Virus record (IMG/VR): IMGVR_UViG_3300039191_000303
Span: 1 to 31,554 of that record
Direction: 5' to 3' (one strand)
DNA: 31,554 nt
Origin: a virus
Shown: positions 2,163 to 31,554 of the stretch, piece by piece
How the letters are laid out: the number at the start of each line of letters is the position of its first letter
Numbering within the stretch: position 1 is the stretch's first letter
The notes under the pieces: model-generated
Told to the model about the DNA's origin: nothing
The model's database searches: none
Seen by the model: the letters and a program-made list of their open reading frames with translations, nothing else
Position numbers and translations under genes: made by a program

Positions 2163-2722
2163 TATCTATTTCCTTTGTATTGTGATAATCTAATTTTAGA
2201 TATTTGCTTATCATCAAAATATTCACTCTCAACTCTTCTATCTGCATCTTTTGTTTCAACCGTTTTTCCATCTGTATTAAATACTACAAAAGTTGTACCA
2301 TTTGTGCTGTTCTCACAAAATCTACCAATATAACCTTCATATTTACCTCTTGTGATTTTACCTTCTAACACATTTTCAACTGTATTTATTTCAACCAATT
2401 CTTTACACCCAACTTCTTTAAACCATATAGCATCTGAATAATCTCCTGCTAAATGTGTAACATATTCAACACCATCTATGCTTACAACTTCTCCATCTTC
2501 TAAAAGTATTGAAGCTTCTTTTTCTTCTATATCTTTTGAGTTATCTTCTTTTGTTAGCATTGTTGCATATTGTAAACCAAATGCTGTTACATCTTCGCTA
2601 TGTGTAGAATTTTTATCATATCCACTTACAAAAATGTAACACTTTATTGTAATTCCTAAATCTTTTAATCTTCCACTTTTTCTTTCAATTTGCACATTTT
2701 GTCTATTAGTTAAATTTTTCAA
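2162..2722 (-). CDS. Hypothetical protein, 186 aa
   Basis: Unrecognised. It has no membrane segment or obvious catalytic motif. Beta-rich stretches follow a basic N-terminus (NLTNRQNVQIERKSGRLK). The C-terminal part holds repeated short strands around GKYEGYIGRF and GTTFVVF, which look like a small barrel. It follows the 73-aa gene by 1 nt and is coupled by TAATG to the acidic protein downstream. Confidence 0.7.
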   Translation of the reverse strand: MKNLTNRQNVQIERKSGRLKDLGITIKCYIFVSGYDKNSTHSEDVTAFGLQYATMLTKEDNSKDIEEKEASILLEDGEVVSIDGVEYVTHLAGDYSDAIWFKEVGCKELVEINTVENVLEGKITRGKYEGYIGRFCENSTNGTTFVVFNTDGKTVETKDADRRVESEYFDDKQISKIRLSQYKGNR

Positions 2723-2723
2723 C

Positions 2724-2945
2724 TTAAATCCTTTTTGATGTTACAGGGTATAAATAATCCCCTTCTTCTCTATCCACATAAACTGTACAGAAAACTTGTC
2801 CACCCTCATCTTCTATCTTTTTTACTACAGATAAAATTCTGCTATGCTTTTTGTTTAGTGATTTCATAAAAGCAACTGCATCTTTTTTAGTAGATGATGT
2901 TAAAAGTAAAACCTCATTGAACTTAACTGTATATCTATTTGCCAT
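2724..2945 (-). CDS. Hypothetical protein, 73 aa
   Basis: Unrecognised. A beta-alpha-beta-like small protein: a KFNEVLLLTS strand, a KKDAVAFMKSLNK helix, then an QVFCTVYVDR strand. It resembles the 66-aa protein just upstream in layout (strand, T/S-K/E-DA helix, strand), so the two may be diverged duplicates. Its ATG sits 2 nt after the upstream stop, inside a 26-nt junction also found at 47-72 with one mismatch. Confidence 0.65.
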   Translation of the reverse strand: MANRYTVKFNEVLLLTSSTKKDAVAFMKSLNKKHSRILSVVKKIEDEGGQVFCTVYVDREEGDYLYPVTSKRI

Positions 2946-2963
2946 AATTATTTTACCTCTCTT
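2938..2963. repeat. 26-nt gene-junction repeat, also at 47-72
   Basis: The stop/start junction here (minus strand AAGAGAGGTAAA...TAATTATGGCAAA) matches 47-72 at 25 of 26 positions. In both places it encodes REVK-stop, then an ATG two bases later with AGAGAGG as ribosome-binding site. It could be a duplicated gene end or a shared translation signal. Confidence 0.7.
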
Positions 2964-3145
2964 GCTTTTCCAATTGTTCCAAATGGCACTTCAAAGATTG
3001 ATATAACACTTGCGTTGTTTTCTGTTTTATCAACCATAAATTGTACATCATCTGTAAATTTCTTTGCTTTTTGTTTTGCATCTTCATCTGTTTCTGCATA
3101 AATGAATAAATCAAATGTTACTGCAAATCTTTTTCCTTGTGCCAT
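2948..3145 (-). CDS. Hypothetical protein, 65 aa, first gene of the early operon
   Basis: Unrecognised small beta-alpha-beta-like protein with FAVTFDLFIYAE, a TDEDAKQKAKKF helix, and a second strand pair. The ATG at 3143-3145 is chosen because GGTGG lies 6 nt upstream; a GTG three codons earlier overlaps that site. It is the first gene after promoter P1 (3175-3203), so it should be expressed early. The resemblance to the next protein suggests a duplication. Confidence 0.65.
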   Translation of the reverse strand: MAQGKRFAVTFDLFIYAETDEDAKQKAKKFTDDVQFMVDKTENNASVISIFEVPFGTIGKAREVK

Positions 3146-3174
3146 CTTTTCCACCTTATTTGTTTTATGATGTA

Positions 3175-3203
3175 AGTTTACAGTGTTTTCTTGGATTTGT
3201 CAA
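3175..3203 (-). promoter_or_regulatory. Promoter P1, sigma70-like, early operon
   Basis: On the minus strand a perfect TTGACA (3198-3203) is followed by a 17-nt spacer and TAAACT (3175-3180). An A/T-rich block upstream could act as an UP element. The same -35, spacer length and -10 occur in P2, with the spacer sequence partly different, which supports functional selection. It reads into the 65-aa gene at 3145. Confidence 0.75.
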
Positions 3204-3261
3204 GTGTTTTTTGGGATTTGGTAAGTTATTTTGTAAATTTGTATAAATGTTATATAAAACC

Positions 3262-5673: not shown

Positions 5674-5703
5674 CTTAACACCTCTTATTTGTTATATGAT
5701 GCA

Positions 5704-5732
5704 AGTTTACAATGTTTTTTGGGGCTTGTCAA
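5704..5732 (-). promoter_or_regulatory. Promoter P2, sigma70-like, exonuclease operon
   Basis: TTGACA (minus strand, 5727-5732), a 17-nt spacer and TAAACT (5704-5709), the same architecture as P1. It reads into the 61-aa gene at 5673 and then the RecE-like exonuclease. Conservation of both hexamers and spacer length between two otherwise diverged flanks is the main support. Confidence 0.75.
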
Positions 5733-5798
5733 GTGTTTTTTGGGATTTGGTAAGTTATTTTGTAAATTTGTATAAAATGTGCTTTAAAATGTGCAACC

Positions 5799-7798: not shown

Positions 7799-8206
7799 TT
7801 ACTTCACAAAATAGCTGTTTCTTTTGCCAACAAACCAAATTGCAAAAGTTTCAAACTCTGTGTTTTTAATTGGCATTTTTGTGCCATTTTCAAAACTAAT
7901 AATTGTATTTGTAAGCCCTAAACTAAAAGCCATACTTACTTGCATCATTCCATCTGCATCATCTTTCATAAATGAAACTTTATAATCAACACCATCAAGT
8001 GTGTAGTTCTCTCCTATCTCTTTGCTTTTTGCAAAATTTAGTGCATCTTCTTTTTCTTTTTTTAATACTATTGCTTCATTAAGCAATTCTACCTCAACAT
8101 TTTCTTTTGTGTCTAAAAATACATAATTTGTATCTTCCATCACAATATTTTTTCCTGTTATCTCTGAAATAACATCAACCATTGGTATTGTAAGTAAATC
8201 TTGCAT
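7799..8206 (-). CDS. Putative tail-fibre assembly chaperone (DUF4376-like)
   Basis: A 135-aa protein. The C-terminal half (GENYTLDGVDYKVSFMKDDA, then an alanine/methionine-rich helix and NGTKMPIKNTEFETFAIW) resembles DUF4376-type proteins found after tail fibres. Such proteins are often treated as fibre chaperones. Its ATG at 8204-8206 has GGGAG upstream, and both lie inside the 3' end of the Avd gene, which it overlaps by 32 nt. The assignment is moderate. Confidence 0.45.
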   Translation of the reverse strand: MQDLLTIPMVDVISEITGKNIVMEDTNYVFLDTKENVEVELLNEAIVLKKEKEDALNFAKSKEIGENYTLDGVDYKVSFMKDDADGMMQVSMAFSLGLTNTIISFENGTKMPIKNTEFETFAIWFVGKRNSYFVK

Positions 8207-8492
8207 ATTCTAACTCCCATTTTAATAATTTAAGCAAATTATAACTATCTGCTTTTGTTGCGTGTCCTGCATCTAATTCATAAAGCTTTGTTTTGTTTAT
8301 TGGCTTTGTTTTTACAACTCTATAAATTAACTCTGCTTGATGAAATACTAAAAGGATTATTTTCTCTTTTAGTATTCCGTGCTTTCGTGGTATTTCTTGA
8401 AGATGTGGATAGATATAGTGAAGAAACTTATCGTACTTTTCTATTAAAACTAATCCACTTTCACTATATCTTTTTTGCATTTCTCCACTCAC
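8175..8492 (-). CDS. avd: Avd-like DGR accessory protein, C-terminally short
   Basis: A 105-aa protein from GTG 8492 (101 aa from the ATG at 8480, which has GGAG 2-3 nt upstream). It resembles Avd, the accessory protein of DGRs: EKYDKFLHYIYPHLQEIPRKHG, then a helix with HQAELIYRV, then KTKLYELDAGHATKADS match the Bordetella phage pattern (Y.YP..Q.IPRKHG, Q.EL, KLY..DAG). Avd forms a pentamer of four-helix bundles that binds the reverse transcriptase and nucleic acid. Here the protein stops after the third helix, and its last residues lie inside the next gene, so the fourth helix is missing. It sits directly after the fibre variable tip, the normal avd position, but no reverse transcriptase follows. 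Confidence 0.8.
   Translation of the reverse strand: MSGEMQKRYSESGLVLIEKYDKFLHYIYPHLQEIPRKHGILKEKIILLVFHQAELIYRVVKTKPINKTKLYELDAGHATKADSYNLLKLLKWELEYARFTYNTNG
8344..8376. repeat. Inverted repeat inside avd-like gene, 11-bp arms
   Basis: AATACTAAAAG (8344-8354) and CTTTTAGTATT (8366-8376) are perfect inverted arms around an 11-nt loop. They lie within the coding sequence. In AT-rich DNA such arms may arise by chance, but a second perfect inverted repeat lies 35 nt away. Confidence 0.6.
8411..8471. repeat. Inverted repeat inside avd-like gene, 12-bp arms
   Basis: AGATATAGTGAA (8411-8422) and TTCACTATATCT (8460-8471) are perfect inverted arms with a 37-nt loop, at the start of the avd-like gene just downstream of the fibre variable tip. 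DGR variable regions are often followed by a hairpin needed for retrohoming. This pair sits at the right side but is further away and less GC-rich than known examples. Confidence 0.5.
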
Positions 8493-8501
8493 TTTCGTTC
8501 G

Positions 8502-8640
8502 TTAGTCAAGTATCAAGTGGTCACAAGCGAAACGAGAACCAATATTCCAATACGAATTCGAAAGAGAATAGTGCCAAGACGAACAACGAGAACCTGCATC
8601 ACCTGCATGGTCACGATAGCCACCCAAAACCACTGGATTA
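8502..8640 (-). other. Putative DGR variable region (VR) of the tail fibre
   Basis: This is the 3' end of the fibre gene, encoding the last 45 residues or so: GGYRDHAGDAGSRCSSW, HYSLSNSYW, NIGSRFACDHLILD. The GSR...W...S.YW.IGSR...CDHL pattern is that of C-type-lectin variable tips in DGR target proteins, where residues between the fixed W/G/R/S positions vary. The codons differ from the rest of the phage: Arg is CGT and several Ser are TCG, while AGA and AT-rich Ser codons prevail elsewhere. No second copy that could serve as template was found. Confidence 0.6.
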
Positions 8641-9980
8641 GCATTTGTGTAAACACTACCTCTACTATCAGTTATTGCACTCCACGAGCCACTTGAAGAT
8701 GTACCAAAATCTGCACCCCATACATTTTGAACACCTGTTGCTTGTTCCATACCTGTTGCACTTGTAAGGTTTGGATAATGTTCTATTTTACCCATTACAG
8801 TTTCATAACCATTTGTTGAAGATGATTTTCCCTCATCTACTCCATAAGCAAATGCAATAAATTCTTCATATTTTAATAATCTTTTTTTAAATGCTTTACC
8901 AATTTCTACTGCTTGAAACCAAGTGTATTTTCCATAATTTAATGTTCCATTTCCACCAAACACTAAAGGTATTTTTGGTATTCCTCTTCCATAATCTGTT
9001 GTTCCACCTGCAATCTTACCACCTGCTTTTGAATAACCTCTTATTCCATAATCTTCATCTGTTTGATAAATATCTACCCATAAGCCAAACTTGTAATGCA
9101 TACCTCTTGCATCTCCATTTGCAGGTAACCAAGTTAAATCCCAAAAAGAGTTTTTATTTATACCTCTTATTTCTGTCATTACTATTTCTGTTTTATTGCC
9201 TGTACTTACTTCTGTTTCTCCTGTAAGTCCATAATGAAAACCACCAATAACTCTTCCTGTTCCTGTGCTTTTATTTGCACTTAAATATAATGTACCATCA
9301 AATTTTACATAAACATAATAATCTGTACCTGCTGTTTTAATTCCTGTATCTAAATTTGTATCTAAAGATAAAATATTATCAGTTTCAAGTGTTACAGTTT
9401 CTCCATTAACAACTAAGCTTGTTCCACTAGGTACTTTTATAGATGAAGCATTTGTTTTTTGAAATAAAGGTTCTTTTGTAACTAATTTAGAAAAAGCATT
9501 GTTTAGAACTCCACCACCCTCTGCTCCTGCTGAAAAATTTTTTTGTATATTAAATCTTTCATTTGTTGCTGAATATATTATTGTGTATGTTTTATCTGAA
9601 CTTAAAAAACCTGCTGTTAGTGCTGAACCATTATAAAATAAAGGCTTTGCACCTAAAGTTTTTACCTTTACTGTTGTTGCACCTGTGTTTGCATTTGCAG
9701 GTGTAAACATTACAACCATACCATCAAACAAAGTTTCAAGTGTTTCTGTTGTTGCACCCCTTGATAATGCTACTGCATTTACTGTTCCTGTATCTGTATA
9801 AAACATAGCTTTACTTGCTATATCTATTGCTTTTGCTGATTGTTTACTATCTAAATCGCTTAGTGCCAAAAATGGTGTTACTATTCCCTTAGCTTCTCCC
9901 ATTAATGAATTATATTCATCTGCAACTACAACCCCTGCACTTGTGTTATCATTATCAATTTTTGTGTTAAAATTTCTCAC
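8502..9980 (-). CDS. Tail fibre / receptor-binding protein with C-type-lectin-like variable tip
   Basis: A 492-aa protein. Residues about 1-150 resemble phage fibre N-terminal segments (KAIDIASKAMFYTDTG, repeated short Thr/Ala/Gly strands). The middle is beta-rich. From about residue 270 it has a formylglycine-generating-enzyme/C-type-lectin-like fold: WDLTWLPANGDARGM, W-V-D-IYQT, YTWFQAVEIGKAFKKRLLKYEEFIAFAYG, then GSWSAITDSRGS and the GGYRDHAG...GSR...CDHL end. This is the architecture of DGR-diversified tropism proteins such as Mtd-like fibres. It follows the gp48-like gene by 1 nt and precedes avd. It should bind the host receptor at the baseplate. Confidence 0.85.
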   Translation of the reverse strand: MRNFNTKIDNDNTSAGVVVADEYNSLMGEAKGIVTPFLALSDLDSKQSAKAIDIASKAMFYTDTGTVNAVALSRGATTETLETLFDGMVVMFTPANANTGATTVKVKTLGAKPLFYNGSALTAGFLSSDKTYTIIYSATNERFNIQKNFSAGAEGGGVLNNAFSKLVTKEPLFQKTNASSIKVPSGTSLVVNGETVTLETDNILSLDTNLDTGIKTAGTDYYVYVKFDGTLYLSANKSTGTGRVIGGFHYGLTGETEVSTGNKTEIVMTEIRGINKNSFWDLTWLPANGDARGMHYKFGLWVDIYQTDEDYGIRGYSKAGGKIAGGTTDYGRGIPKIPLVFGGNGTLNYGKYTWFQAVEIGKAFKKRLLKYEEFIAFAYGVDEGKSSSTNGYETVMGKIEHYPNLTSATGMEQATGVQNVWGADFGTSSSGSWSAITDSRGSVYTNANPVVLGGYRDHAGDAGSRCSSWHYSLSNSYWNIGSRFACDHLILD

Positions 9981-22131: not shown

Positions 22132-23130
22132 TTAAAGTGCAATATGTAAAATTGTAATTGGCGATAATTTAACATCAACTGCAAGTGTGTACATTGTACC
22201 ACCTTGTAATTCTGCTAATGTTGCACCACTTTTACTTGCTGTTGTACCACTAAATGTAAAACCAATTGGGTGCATAATAAATAATTTCTTTGTACCAAAA
22301 TCTTCACTACCTGCACCATTACCTGCTTTTGCATCTTCATTGTACATAATTGGCTTTTCAATATTATCTTTTTCTGCATAAGCAAAAGCATTTTCATCAA
22401 TAAATGCAATTTTTCCATTTGTCATTGTATCATCAATAACAACTTTTACATATCCGTCATAAATCCAACCTGTCGGCTTACCTCTTACATAAGTTTCAAC
22501 ACCACCAACAACTTTAAGAATTGCATCACCAAATGTTTGTGTAAACATTGCTGGCTCTTTTTTCTTGGCTGATACAAAAGTTGCACTATTCATTTGCATT
22601 GTATCAAGTCCTTGCATACCCATATCACCTTTAAGTGCCATTGTATCAATTACAAGATTTGATGTAAATGTTGCTGTACCATCACCTTGCACAAGTTCTG
22701 TAATTGCACTAATACCTGTAACTGTGTTTGCAATTATTTTATTAAATGTTTCACTCCAAAATCTACCCATAAACTCATTCACAACCAAATTTGGTTTTGT
22801 TGATGCAAGTAAATCTTTTTGAATTTTTTTAACATTCCACCATTGATTTACATAATATGTTTTTGCATCTGCTTCATCAAAGTTTTCTGCCAATGCTGTT
22901 GCAACTGTTGTACTTGCATCACCTAAATTACCCTCTGCCCAGTCATAACCAATCAATGCTGTTGTAATTTTTGAGTTTACATTTTGTTCATTAATCGCAT
23001 TAAGCATATCTGTTGCTTCTGATGAAGCTGTTGATACTATACCACTTTCTAATATTGCATTTACTGCTGTTGAACGATTTACACTCGTTGCTTTCCAATT
23101 GTTGTTTAATATTACATCTTGAATTGTCAC
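22132..23130 (-). CDS. Major capsid protein
   Basis: A 332-aa protein directly after the scaffold, the standard place. It starts at GTG 23128-23130 with AAGG upstream; no in-frame ATG is near. Segments such as AKTYYVNQWWNVKKIQKDLL, VNEFMGRFWSETFNKII and KKLFIMHPIGFTFSG match HK97-fold capsids of Mu-like and similar phages, where the spine helix precedes the P-domain strands. No N-terminal cleavage domain is seen, so the separate scaffold gene probably guides assembly. A TATAAT-like -10 lies 88 nt upstream. Confidence 0.85.
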   Translation of the reverse strand: MTIQDVILNNNWKATSVNRSTAVNAILESGIVSTASSEATDMLNAINEQNVNSKITTALIGYDWAEGNLGDASTTVATALAENFDEADAKTYYVNQWWNVKKIQKDLLASTKPNLVVNEFMGRFWSETFNKIIANTVTGISAITELVQGDGTATFTSNLVIDTMALKGDMGMQGLDTMQMNSATFVSAKKKEPAMFTQTFGDAILKVVGGVETYVRGKPTGWIYDGYVKVVIDDTMTNGKIAFIDENAFAYAEKDNIEKPIMYNEDAKAGNGAGSEDFGTKKLFIMHPIGFTFSGTTASKSGATLAELQGGTMYTLAVDVKLSPITILHIAL

Positions 23131-23217
23131 TTTATCTACCTTTTTTTATTTTTATTTTTTGTGTTTTTGTGCTTATTTTGATAATCCAATCAAATAAACT
23201 GTGTTGAAGTCCATCAA

Positions 23218-23223
23218 ATTATA
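23218..23223 (-). promoter_or_regulatory. Perfect -10 hexamer upstream of capsid gene
   Basis: TATAAT on the minus strand, preceded by TG, lies in the 116-nt gap between scaffold and capsid genes. The -35 position holds no good TTGACA match, so it is only a candidate for a separate capsid promoter. Confidence 0.35.
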
Positions 23224-23227
23224 CATA

Positions 23228-23257
23228 TTGTACCACAATTTACTTACTATGGTACAA
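23228..23257. repeat. Inverted repeat at the end of the scaffold gene
   Basis: TTGTACCA (23228-23235) and TGGTACAA (23250-23257) are perfect 8-bp arms with a 14-nt loop that includes the scaffold stop codon. No U-tract follows, so RNA processing, message stability or operator use is likelier than termination. Confidence 0.6.
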
Positions 23258-23918
23258 AGTCACCTTTTGTTTTACCACCTGCACCACTACCACTTGCACC
23301 ACTGTCTTGGACATCTATATTAAAAAACATACTTTCATTTGCTGTTTTCTCTTTGTCGAACATTTGCTTTACCATATCATCAACTGTTGCATCTTTACCA
23401 TCAATTCTTAAGCTTGTGCCATCTGTATTTTTAAACACAACTTTGCCATCTTCATATTGTGCTTTTGCTTCAACTGCTGTTGTAATATAATCATAACCTG
23501 CTGTTTTTGCATTGTGCTTTGGTAATGCTTTTGCAATTTCAGTTTTTAAACCCATTGCCATAAGTTGTTTTGATGATGTTGATTTTGTATCATCAAGTGT
23601 TGTTGTTAATGTTGTAATTTCATTTTTCAATTGCACAATCTCTGCATCTTTTACATCATCATTACCTGCTTTTTTATTTTTAATAGCATCTATTGCTTCA
23701 ACAACATTTTCAACATCTGCACCAAGTCCTGTTGCTATGCTTTTCAATTTAGATTTTGTATCATCACGACTTGCAATCGCATCAATCTTCAATCTCTCCT
23801 GCTCATTCACTTTTGTATCAAGTCCACTTATTGTGCTTTTCACTGTATCAAAAAGCTTTTGTGCTTCATCTTTTTTATCATCTGCTACTAATCCAAGTAA
23901 CTTTAGTAATTCTTCCAT
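23247..23918 (-). CDS. Capsid scaffold protein
   Basis: A 223-aa, highly charged, mostly helical protein with coiled-coil stretches (KLFDTVKSTISGLDTKVNEQERLKIDAI, DAEIVQLKNEITTLTTTLDD) and a short C-terminal tail ending GAGGKTKGDFVP. Position immediately before the major capsid gene and the helix-rich composition mark it as a GP20/DUF4355-like scaffold. No protease motif is seen. It is probably expelled from the prohead. Confidence 0.8.
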   Translation of the reverse strand: MEELLKLLGLVADDKKDEAQKLFDTVKSTISGLDTKVNEQERLKIDAIASRDDTKSKLKSIATGLGADVENVVEAIDAIKNKKAGNDDVKDAEIVQLKNEITTLTTTLDDTKSTSSKQLMAMGLKTEIAKALPKHNAKTAGYDYITTAVEAKAQYEDGKVVFKNTDGTSLRIDGKDATVDDMVKQMFDKEKTANESMFFNIDVQDSGASGSGAGGKTKGDFVP

Positions 23919-28739: not shown

Positions 28740-28914
28740 CTTCAACACTTTTTTCTGCTTTTAATTCATCAATCTTTACTGATAAATTAATAATGATTTT
28801 GATTAAATCGCCTTTGCTGTTGTTTTTCAATCTTTGCTTAATTTCTGCATCACTAAACTCTTTTATTTTTTCTGGCACATCATCTTCTTTTACTTGCTCT
28901 TTTTGTTCTAACAT
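28729..28914 (-). CDS. Hypothetical acidic-basic protein, 61 aa
   Basis: Unrecognised, charged and helical (EFSDAEIKQRLKNNSKGDLIKIIINLSVKIDELKAEK), with coiled-coil tendency. It overlaps the methyltransferase end by 7 nt and the next ORF start at its stop. Probably a small early protein. Confidence 0.6.
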   Translation of the reverse strand: MLEQKEQVKEDDVPEKIKEFSDAEIKQRLKNNSKGDLIKIIINLSVKIDELKAEKSVEDGK

Positions 28915-29621
28915 TCGCGCAACCTTTTAACTGTTTTTTCAAAATATTTATCATCTATCTCACAACCTATAAAAAATCTATTCAATTTCTTACAAGCAAC
29001 TGGTGTTGCACCTATACCATAAAAAAAATCTGCAACTGTATCGCCCTCATTACTTGAATTTTTTATAAGAGTTTCCATCACTTCAACTGGCTTTTCTGTG
29101 TCGTGAATTGTTTTGTTGTCTTCGTCTTTTAGTTTCTTGTTTTTAGCATAAATTACATCACTATCGCCACAATTATTTATCTTTTTATGTTTTCCTTTTC
29201 TCAACATAATAATATATTCAAATTGGCTCATATAGCTTTGCCCCATAATCTTATTATCTTTTACCCATATAAGATTTTTTACAAAGTGAAACTTTTGCTT
29301 TTTATCATCATTAAAATACATTTCATTAATTGCTTTTAAATATTGTGTGATGTTTTTGTTGTTTGTCATAATGTAACAATGGCTTTCATCTTCCAATAAA
29401 TTATAAAACTTTGGTAACCAATCTTGTATTTCTAAATCATTTTTTTTAAACAATCTACCATTATTAACTTCTTTTTTTTGAAACATACCACCACTTGTGC
29501 CACCATTGCCTCTTGCTGTAATTTTATATGGTGGGTCTGTTATAATTAAATCAACTTTCACACCTGCCTCAAGCATATTATCCATTACTTGCATACTGTC
29601 TTTATTGTGATATTCATTCAT
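28908..29621 (-). CDS. DNA adenine/cytosine-N4 methyltransferase, beta-type motif order
   Basis: A 237-aa protein. Catalytic motif IV is TDPPY at residues 28-32; the SAM-binding motif I lies near the C-terminus as VADFFYGIGATPVACKKLNRFFIG with the acidic GCEID after it, giving the beta-class order. Between them are HCYIMTNNKNIT, FVKNLIWVKDN and EYIIMLRKGKHK, and TEKPVEVMETLIKNSS marks the motif before the SAM site (the T/D-x-K-P-x-x-L/M type). The usual DPF of motif I is DFF here. It probably protects phage DNA against host restriction. Site specificity cannot be told from sequence. It follows the 68-aa gene by an 8-nt overlap. Confidence 0.88.
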   Translation of the reverse strand: MNEYHNKDSMQVMDNMLEAGVKVDLIITDPPYKITARGNGGTSGGMFQKKEVNNGRLFKKNDLEIQDWLPKFYNLLEDESHCYIMTNNKNITQYLKAINEMYFNDDKKQKFHFVKNLIWVKDNKIMGQSYMSQFEYIIMLRKGKHKKINNCGDSDVIYAKNKKLKDEDNKTIHDTEKPVEVMETLIKNSSNEGDTVADFFYGIGATPVACKKLNRFFIGCEIDDKYFEKTVKRLREC

Positions 29622-30966: not shown

Positions 30967-31481
30967 TTTTGCACCCTTACACTTGCATCTTTTGTTGTTT
31001 CAACTTCTTTTGTTTGTACTCTTGTTTTAACACCTTGTGCTTCAAGCATTTCAATTAAATCATCTTTTGATAATTCAGATATATTTACATATTTTCTTTT
31101 TACCATAATTTGTTTTGTGCTTAAAATACCTTTTGTTGTTTTTGAGTGTTGTAATGTAATACTTTTTGTTTGCTCACCATCAAGTCTTTCAATATTTTTA
31201 TCAAGCAACCATTGTGTTAAATAACCTCTTAAATCTGTTTCTGCTTTTTTAAGTGGTCTTGCTACTGCATCAACAACTGCTTTAATATCCTTACCAACTT
31301 GTAATTTTTGTGCAATTGTTTTTTCAACTTCACCAAATATATCTGCAATATTATCTTGTGCTTCCATCATTGCACTAAAATCTTCATAATTACCAATACC
31401 AACAATTGCACCAACTTTTGATTGTTTTGTAATTTCCATCAATTTCTGTGGATTAAATTCATCTTTTTTTTCTTTTGCCAT
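30963..31481 (-). CDS. Gp157/Gam-like early protein, 172 aa
   Basis: A mostly helical, lysine-rich protein (EVEKTIAQKLQVGKDIKAVVDAVARPLKKAETDLRGYLTQWLLD), followed by a strand segment KSITLQHSKTTKGILSTKQI and a basic end. A long helix hairpin followed by strands is the pattern of siphovirus Gp157 and Gam-like nuclease-inhibitor proteins. A nuclease-inhibitor role would suit a phage relying on recombination, but the assignment is not firm. The start is 2 nt after the end of the 98-aa gene on the circle. Its first 54 nt appear again at 1-54. Confidence 0.45.
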   Translation of the reverse strand: MAKEKKDEFNPQKLMEITKQSKVGAIVGIGNYEDFSAMMEAQDNIADIFGEVEKTIAQKLQVGKDIKAVVDAVARPLKKAETDLRGYLTQWLLDKNIERLDGEQTKSITLQHSKTTKGILSTKQIMVKRKYVNISELSKDDLIEMLEAQGVKTRVQTKEVETTKDASVRVQK

Positions 31482-31554
31482 AATTACTTTACCTCTCTTA
31501 TTGTAATTTCATATCTTGCACCATCTTCAAGCACACCATCAATACCATTAAGTA
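31428..31554. repeat. Right copy of 127-bp terminal direct repeat
   Basis: Identical to bases 1-127. It should be removed once on closing the molecule. Confidence 0.95.
31484..31554 (-). CDS. C-terminal fragment of the 98-aa gene, duplicate from the terminal overlap
   Basis: This is the last part of the gene complete at 57-353 (ending ITIREVK), repeated because of the 127-bp overlap and cut at the window end. It is not a second gene. Confidence 0.9.
   Translation of the reverse strand, partial: LNGIDGVLEDGARYEITIREVK

Follow-up and report, generated by a model that had tools for sequence, protein, structure and literature searches.

Probable decay of a BPP-1-type DGR beside an mtd-type tail fibre gene in a closed phage genome

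The window, by which we mean the whole stretch of 31,554 nucleotides analysed here, very probably holds a decayed BPP-1-type DGR in which one deletion took the rest of avd, the template repeat (TR) and nearly all of the reverse transcriptase (RT) gene, with the fibre now probably fixed. What appeared to be an orphan Mtd/Avd pair becomes a readable deletion scar, and the locus is a warning that an Avd match beside a fibre gene does not equal a working DGR. The DNA is that of a complete contractile-tailed phage, probably with a host among the Campylobacterota. The host is deduced only from the organisms in which the closest RTs occur, since four Campylobacterota genomes searched for the terminase gave no match. 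The parts of the locus are the following:

8502..9980 (-), mtd-type receptor-binding tail fibre gene, encoding the DGR target protein (PDB 1yu4, PF21916, phrog_11262)
8521..8627 (-), 5' limit approximate, variable repeat (VR) with an IMH-type 3' end (GGTTCTCGTTTCGCTTGTGA), from in-register alignment with 19 cis VR/TR pairs
8487..8502 (-), hairpin of the target site, ACGAAC-GAAA-GTGAGT, located at the stop codon of mtd, its stem having tandem G.A mismatches and its loop being of the GRNA type
8268..8492 (-), 5' portion of the avd gene, roughly 75 codons that encode the first two helices and the beginning of the third (identity to the L003 Avd; PF22296)
8199..8267 (-), last ~23 codons of a DGR RT, in frame with avd (RT-tail scores against L026 and L027; DNA alignment)
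7799..8206 (-), 135-aa gene found directly after the RT in intact relatives, marking the far side of the deletion (homologues in L004, L003 and others)

The avd::RT fusion and the missing parts

Intact relatives give the arrangement from which the locus can be read. In the viral contig L004 the order is mtd-VR, avd (111 aa), TR, RT (335 aa) and a homologue of 7799-8206, and a scan with the L004 RT revealed some twenty further loci with the same order (L008-L027 and others). Most of the RTs in these relatives have the motifs IGNLLSQ and YMDD, and among cellular genomes the closest matches are RTs of Campylobacterota (Helicobacteraceae, Arcobacteraceae, Sulfurimonas and Sulfuricurvum).

The gene at 8175-8492 (-) had been put forward in a preliminary description as an Avd with clear motifs, to be confirmed by a search against the Avd family. 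That search does return a match, with a score above the bAvd cut-off (PF22296, 47.4 bits against 40) and with the BPP-1 Avd structure 4dwl (E 6e-10), but the name holds only for the first ~75-78 residues, the remainder being the tail of the missing RT. In every search the match ends at about residue 78 of 105. Residues 1-79 are 86% identical to the Avd of L003, which is the nearest relative of the window (Mtd 83% identical). Past residue ~76-78 the protein diverges from all Avds and continues as GHATKADSYNLLKLLKWELEYAR, where residues 76-98 show identity to the RT C-terminus of L026 (GHVVRADSFNLLNLLRGELEYAR) and L027 (GHASKADSFNLLNLLRGELQNAR), with alignment scores of 85 and 81 respectively compared with at most 45 in 2000 shuffles. 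The relationship is also visible when the DNA is aligned. Because the tail corresponds to an RT C-terminus, the DNA aligns and the intact relatives have the gene order given above, the gene is an avd::RT fusion that arose through a single deletion, and not a true Avd.

The breakpoint between avd and RT lies within about 8256-8267; in four intact loci the sequence lost from the window is 1353-1444 bases long. On the far side, homologues of 7799-8206 directly follow the RT in L004 and others and follow an HNH endonuclease gene in L003. Sequence similarity at the junction amounts to only about 10 imperfect bases, and the VR/TR repeat is not involved.

The ancestor would thus have had mtd-VR, avd, TR and RT, and a single deletion of about 1.35-1.45 kb is proposed because the intact relatives have these parts in this order, followed by the same downstream gene. 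The deletion would have taken place between short similar stretches, GGACTTGCAACA in avd and GG.CA.GCA..AAAGC in the RT gene, fusing avd codon ~76 to RT codon ~304-309. Avd would have lost its C-terminal part in this event, and the TR and the polymerase would have gone with it. A full-length four-helix Avd is absent from the window, where helix 4 and a portion of helix 3 are missing from the remnant. The structure model of the intact L003 Avd is confident and has four helices (pLDDT 89), whereas the model of the fusion has three and is of low confidence (pLDDT 71, pTM 0.45). Predicted to have three helices where the Avd bundle has four, the 105-aa in-frame remnant should not support retrohoming; the reconstituted BPP-1 system needs all three of Avd, TR and RT (PMC12875486). 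The fibre would retain the VR last written, with a receptor specificity fixed but for ordinary mutation.

A further reading, compatible with loss of the DGR, is re-use of the fusion gene, whose product would now be a new small helical protein maintained by selection. Its 105-aa ORF is indeed still open, in frame and overlapping the start of the next gene, but the low confidence of its model and the lack of the same fusion in any second genome among the loci found make such re-use improbable.

The closed genome contains no RT detectable with PF00078, or, down to matches at E <= 10, with a profile built from the nearest RTs, and only the last ~23 residues of a DGR RT are present in the window. 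Likewise, no TR copy of the VR was found in the 3.1 kb around the locus with adenine-tolerant scoring, or in a repeat search of the whole window. These searches bear out the preliminary description, which had reported neither a TR nor an RT in a genome closed by a 127-bp overlap. Bases 1-127 are in fact identical to 31428-31554, and since the overlap has the same length in the relative G004 it looks like an assembler k-mer overlap from a circular or permuted genome, which supports completeness.

The fibre, its variable repeat and the target site

The last ~330 residues of the fibre match solved Mtd proteins of Bordetella phages, the best being 1yu4 (E 8e-38; fibre residues 159-492, to the last residue), and the fibre is also matched by Pfam PF21916 (2.7e-17) and phrog_11262 (1.9e-71). 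Both the middle domain and the C-terminal C-type-lectin domain of the Mtd family are present (PF21916, 1yu4). By these matches the protein encoded at 8502-9980 (-) is identified as a homologue of BPP-1 Mtd, and the C-type-lectin variable-type tip that had been noticed earlier stands, the homology to 1yu4 and PF21916 running to the last residue. Second, remote Mtd-like genes occur in some relatives (L091:3374-4357, G004 22748-23707 and L026:11952-12791); the window has none. The second VRs of L026 and G004 have 0/79 non-A mismatches to their own TR, an adenine pattern like that of the first VR.

In the cis VR/TR pairs of intact relatives nearly all mismatches are at TR adenines, with 0-3 others in most pairs; the exceptions are L016 and L017, which have a shorter TR match. 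When the VR of the window is compared with that of L003, 15 of 21 adenine-type columns differ against 5 of 79 other columns (P = 2e-9), and the third codon position differs by 9% in the VR compared with 27-36% in the rest of mtd. The adenine-column pattern and the third-position likeness inside the VR indicate that a DGR rewrote the repeats after the lineages of the window and L003 had parted. That the window lineage lost its RT later than this rewriting is the simplest reading.

The target parts are all kept in the window, with the IMH extending to 8521 and the hairpin at 8487-8502. The BPP-1 hairpin, GCGGGGCC-GAAA-GGCCCCGC, is situated in the same place. The hairpin form is present at 23/23 related target sites at a shuffled rate of 4.5% per site, which serves as a guide only because the rule allowing tandem G.A was set after inspection of the aligned flanks. 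A strict Watson-Crick hairpin search gave nothing relevant and a search of Rfam gave no match. In this phage group the hairpin is built with tandem G.A mismatches, and at the window site and 22 related sites it takes one of two forms that differ by an exchange of the arms, RCGAAC-GRNA-GTGAGY or RTGAGY-GRNA-RCGAAY.

A target in this condition could in principle still be served from elsewhere, and the preliminary description had left it open whether the cassette was decayed or working in trans. Under the latter reading the fibre is still diversified with RT, Avd and TR supplied by the host or a co-infecting phage. The BPP-1 target needs the IMH, a GRNA-loop hairpin and homology (PMC3240598), of which IMH and hairpin are intact here; for BPP-1, a donor plasmid is known to serve as source for homing into a prophage (PMC3240598), and related intact DGRs are known in Campylobacterota genomes and phages. 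However, a fitting TR would have to match GGTTCTCGTTGTTCGNNTTGG...TTCTCTTTCG, and the foreign template searched for was found neither in the viral contigs, where only the two VRs of G003 itself match, nor in 397 Campylobacterota genomes, which hold no TR of the window lineage. Three extra matches to the VR pattern (L277-L279) were attributed to chance. When all cis TRs of relatives were tried as template for the window VR, the best (L026) had 11/80 non-adenine mismatches, compared with 0-3 in most cis pairs. On the viral contigs and genomes searched, diversification in trans is very unlikely, and the same low standing is given to its broader form, in which the phage group repeatedly drops its own RT but keeps VR, IMH and hairpin intact because the fibre is rewritten in trans by DGR phages that co-infect or are resident. 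Of the two possibilities, decay is favoured by the avd::RT scar and by RT losses in relatives, and action in trans is weakened by the incomplete Avd, the lost TR and the lack of a fitting TR elsewhere.

An assembly artefact in a phage with an intact DGR is hardly credible, for although VR/TR repeats can confuse assembly, the avd/RT junction lies outside them in only ~10 imperfect bases, below the usual assembler word, the reading frame runs on through the fusion and the contig is closed. The contig may come from a mixed population with the deletion in a minority of its members.

Loss of the RT in relatives and comparison with known systems

Roughly 75 Avd loci have 1 kb or more of downstream sequence. 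Among them, four others (L003, L088, L102 and L140) have no whole RT, and these relatives have lost it by different routes. L003 has a full Avd and an HNH endonuclease gene where TR and RT would be; the bases before its downstream gene have, by themselves, a weak likeness to an RT 3' end (score 30, shuffled maximum 29). In L088 a single ORF (2444-3184, -) combines an Avd with an internal deletion and an HNH endonuclease domain, replacing TR and RT; behind it lies a scar with RT tail sequence (score 53, shuffled maximum 26). A deletion scar in L102 (4019-4261) joins the first TR bases to RT codon ~263, in the last quarter. In L140 (4968-6233), read by eye, avd and a TR-like stretch are accompanied by an integrase-like gene in the place of the RT. 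The HNH gene replaces TR-RT at two loci, where the endonuclease may be the cause of the loss. In one phage group the tropism-switching machine has thus been lost repeatedly, by deletion or with an HNH gene now found where it was, and the fibre has been kept; when it is better to stop mutating becomes a testable question.

The DGR of the window descends from the BPP-1 type (mtd / avd / TR / brt), and it works or worked like it. The two share an Mtd-homologue target, a VR at the same end, a hairpin right after the stop codon and avd as the next gene, and the order is the same in the intact relatives of the window. They differ in that the window hairpin has tandem G.A pairs in its stem and in that, in the window, avd has lost its 3' end, the TR is gone and almost nothing of the RT is left. 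Of the features that define a functional BPP-1-type DGR, three are absent (RT, TR and full-length Avd); the VR is present and shows adenine-patterned variation, and the IMH and the hairpin are there as well.

This kind of finding is already known, because in epsilon crAss-like phages the DGR RT is fragmented or deleted with the receptor-binding target and its VR kept (PMC11054128). The window shares with these the lost RT and the persisting target (PMC11054128) and differs from them in phage group and fibre type. What is new in the present phage group, compared with the epsilon crAss-like phages, is that the breakpoints and an in-frame avd::RT fusion are defined and that several loss routes are found within one group. 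Marinomonas phage P12026 and Synechococcus phage S-CBS3 also have an annotated mtd-like gene without adjacent avd or RT, with about 35-38% identity to the window fibre.

Elsewhere in the window, a 93-base direct repeat (3155-3247 and 5684-5776, 92% identical) is intergenic and lies just 5' of minus-strand genes, the copies possibly being a shared promoter region. A DNA methyltransferase-like gene at 28908-29621 has no counterpart in the relatives G003 and G004.
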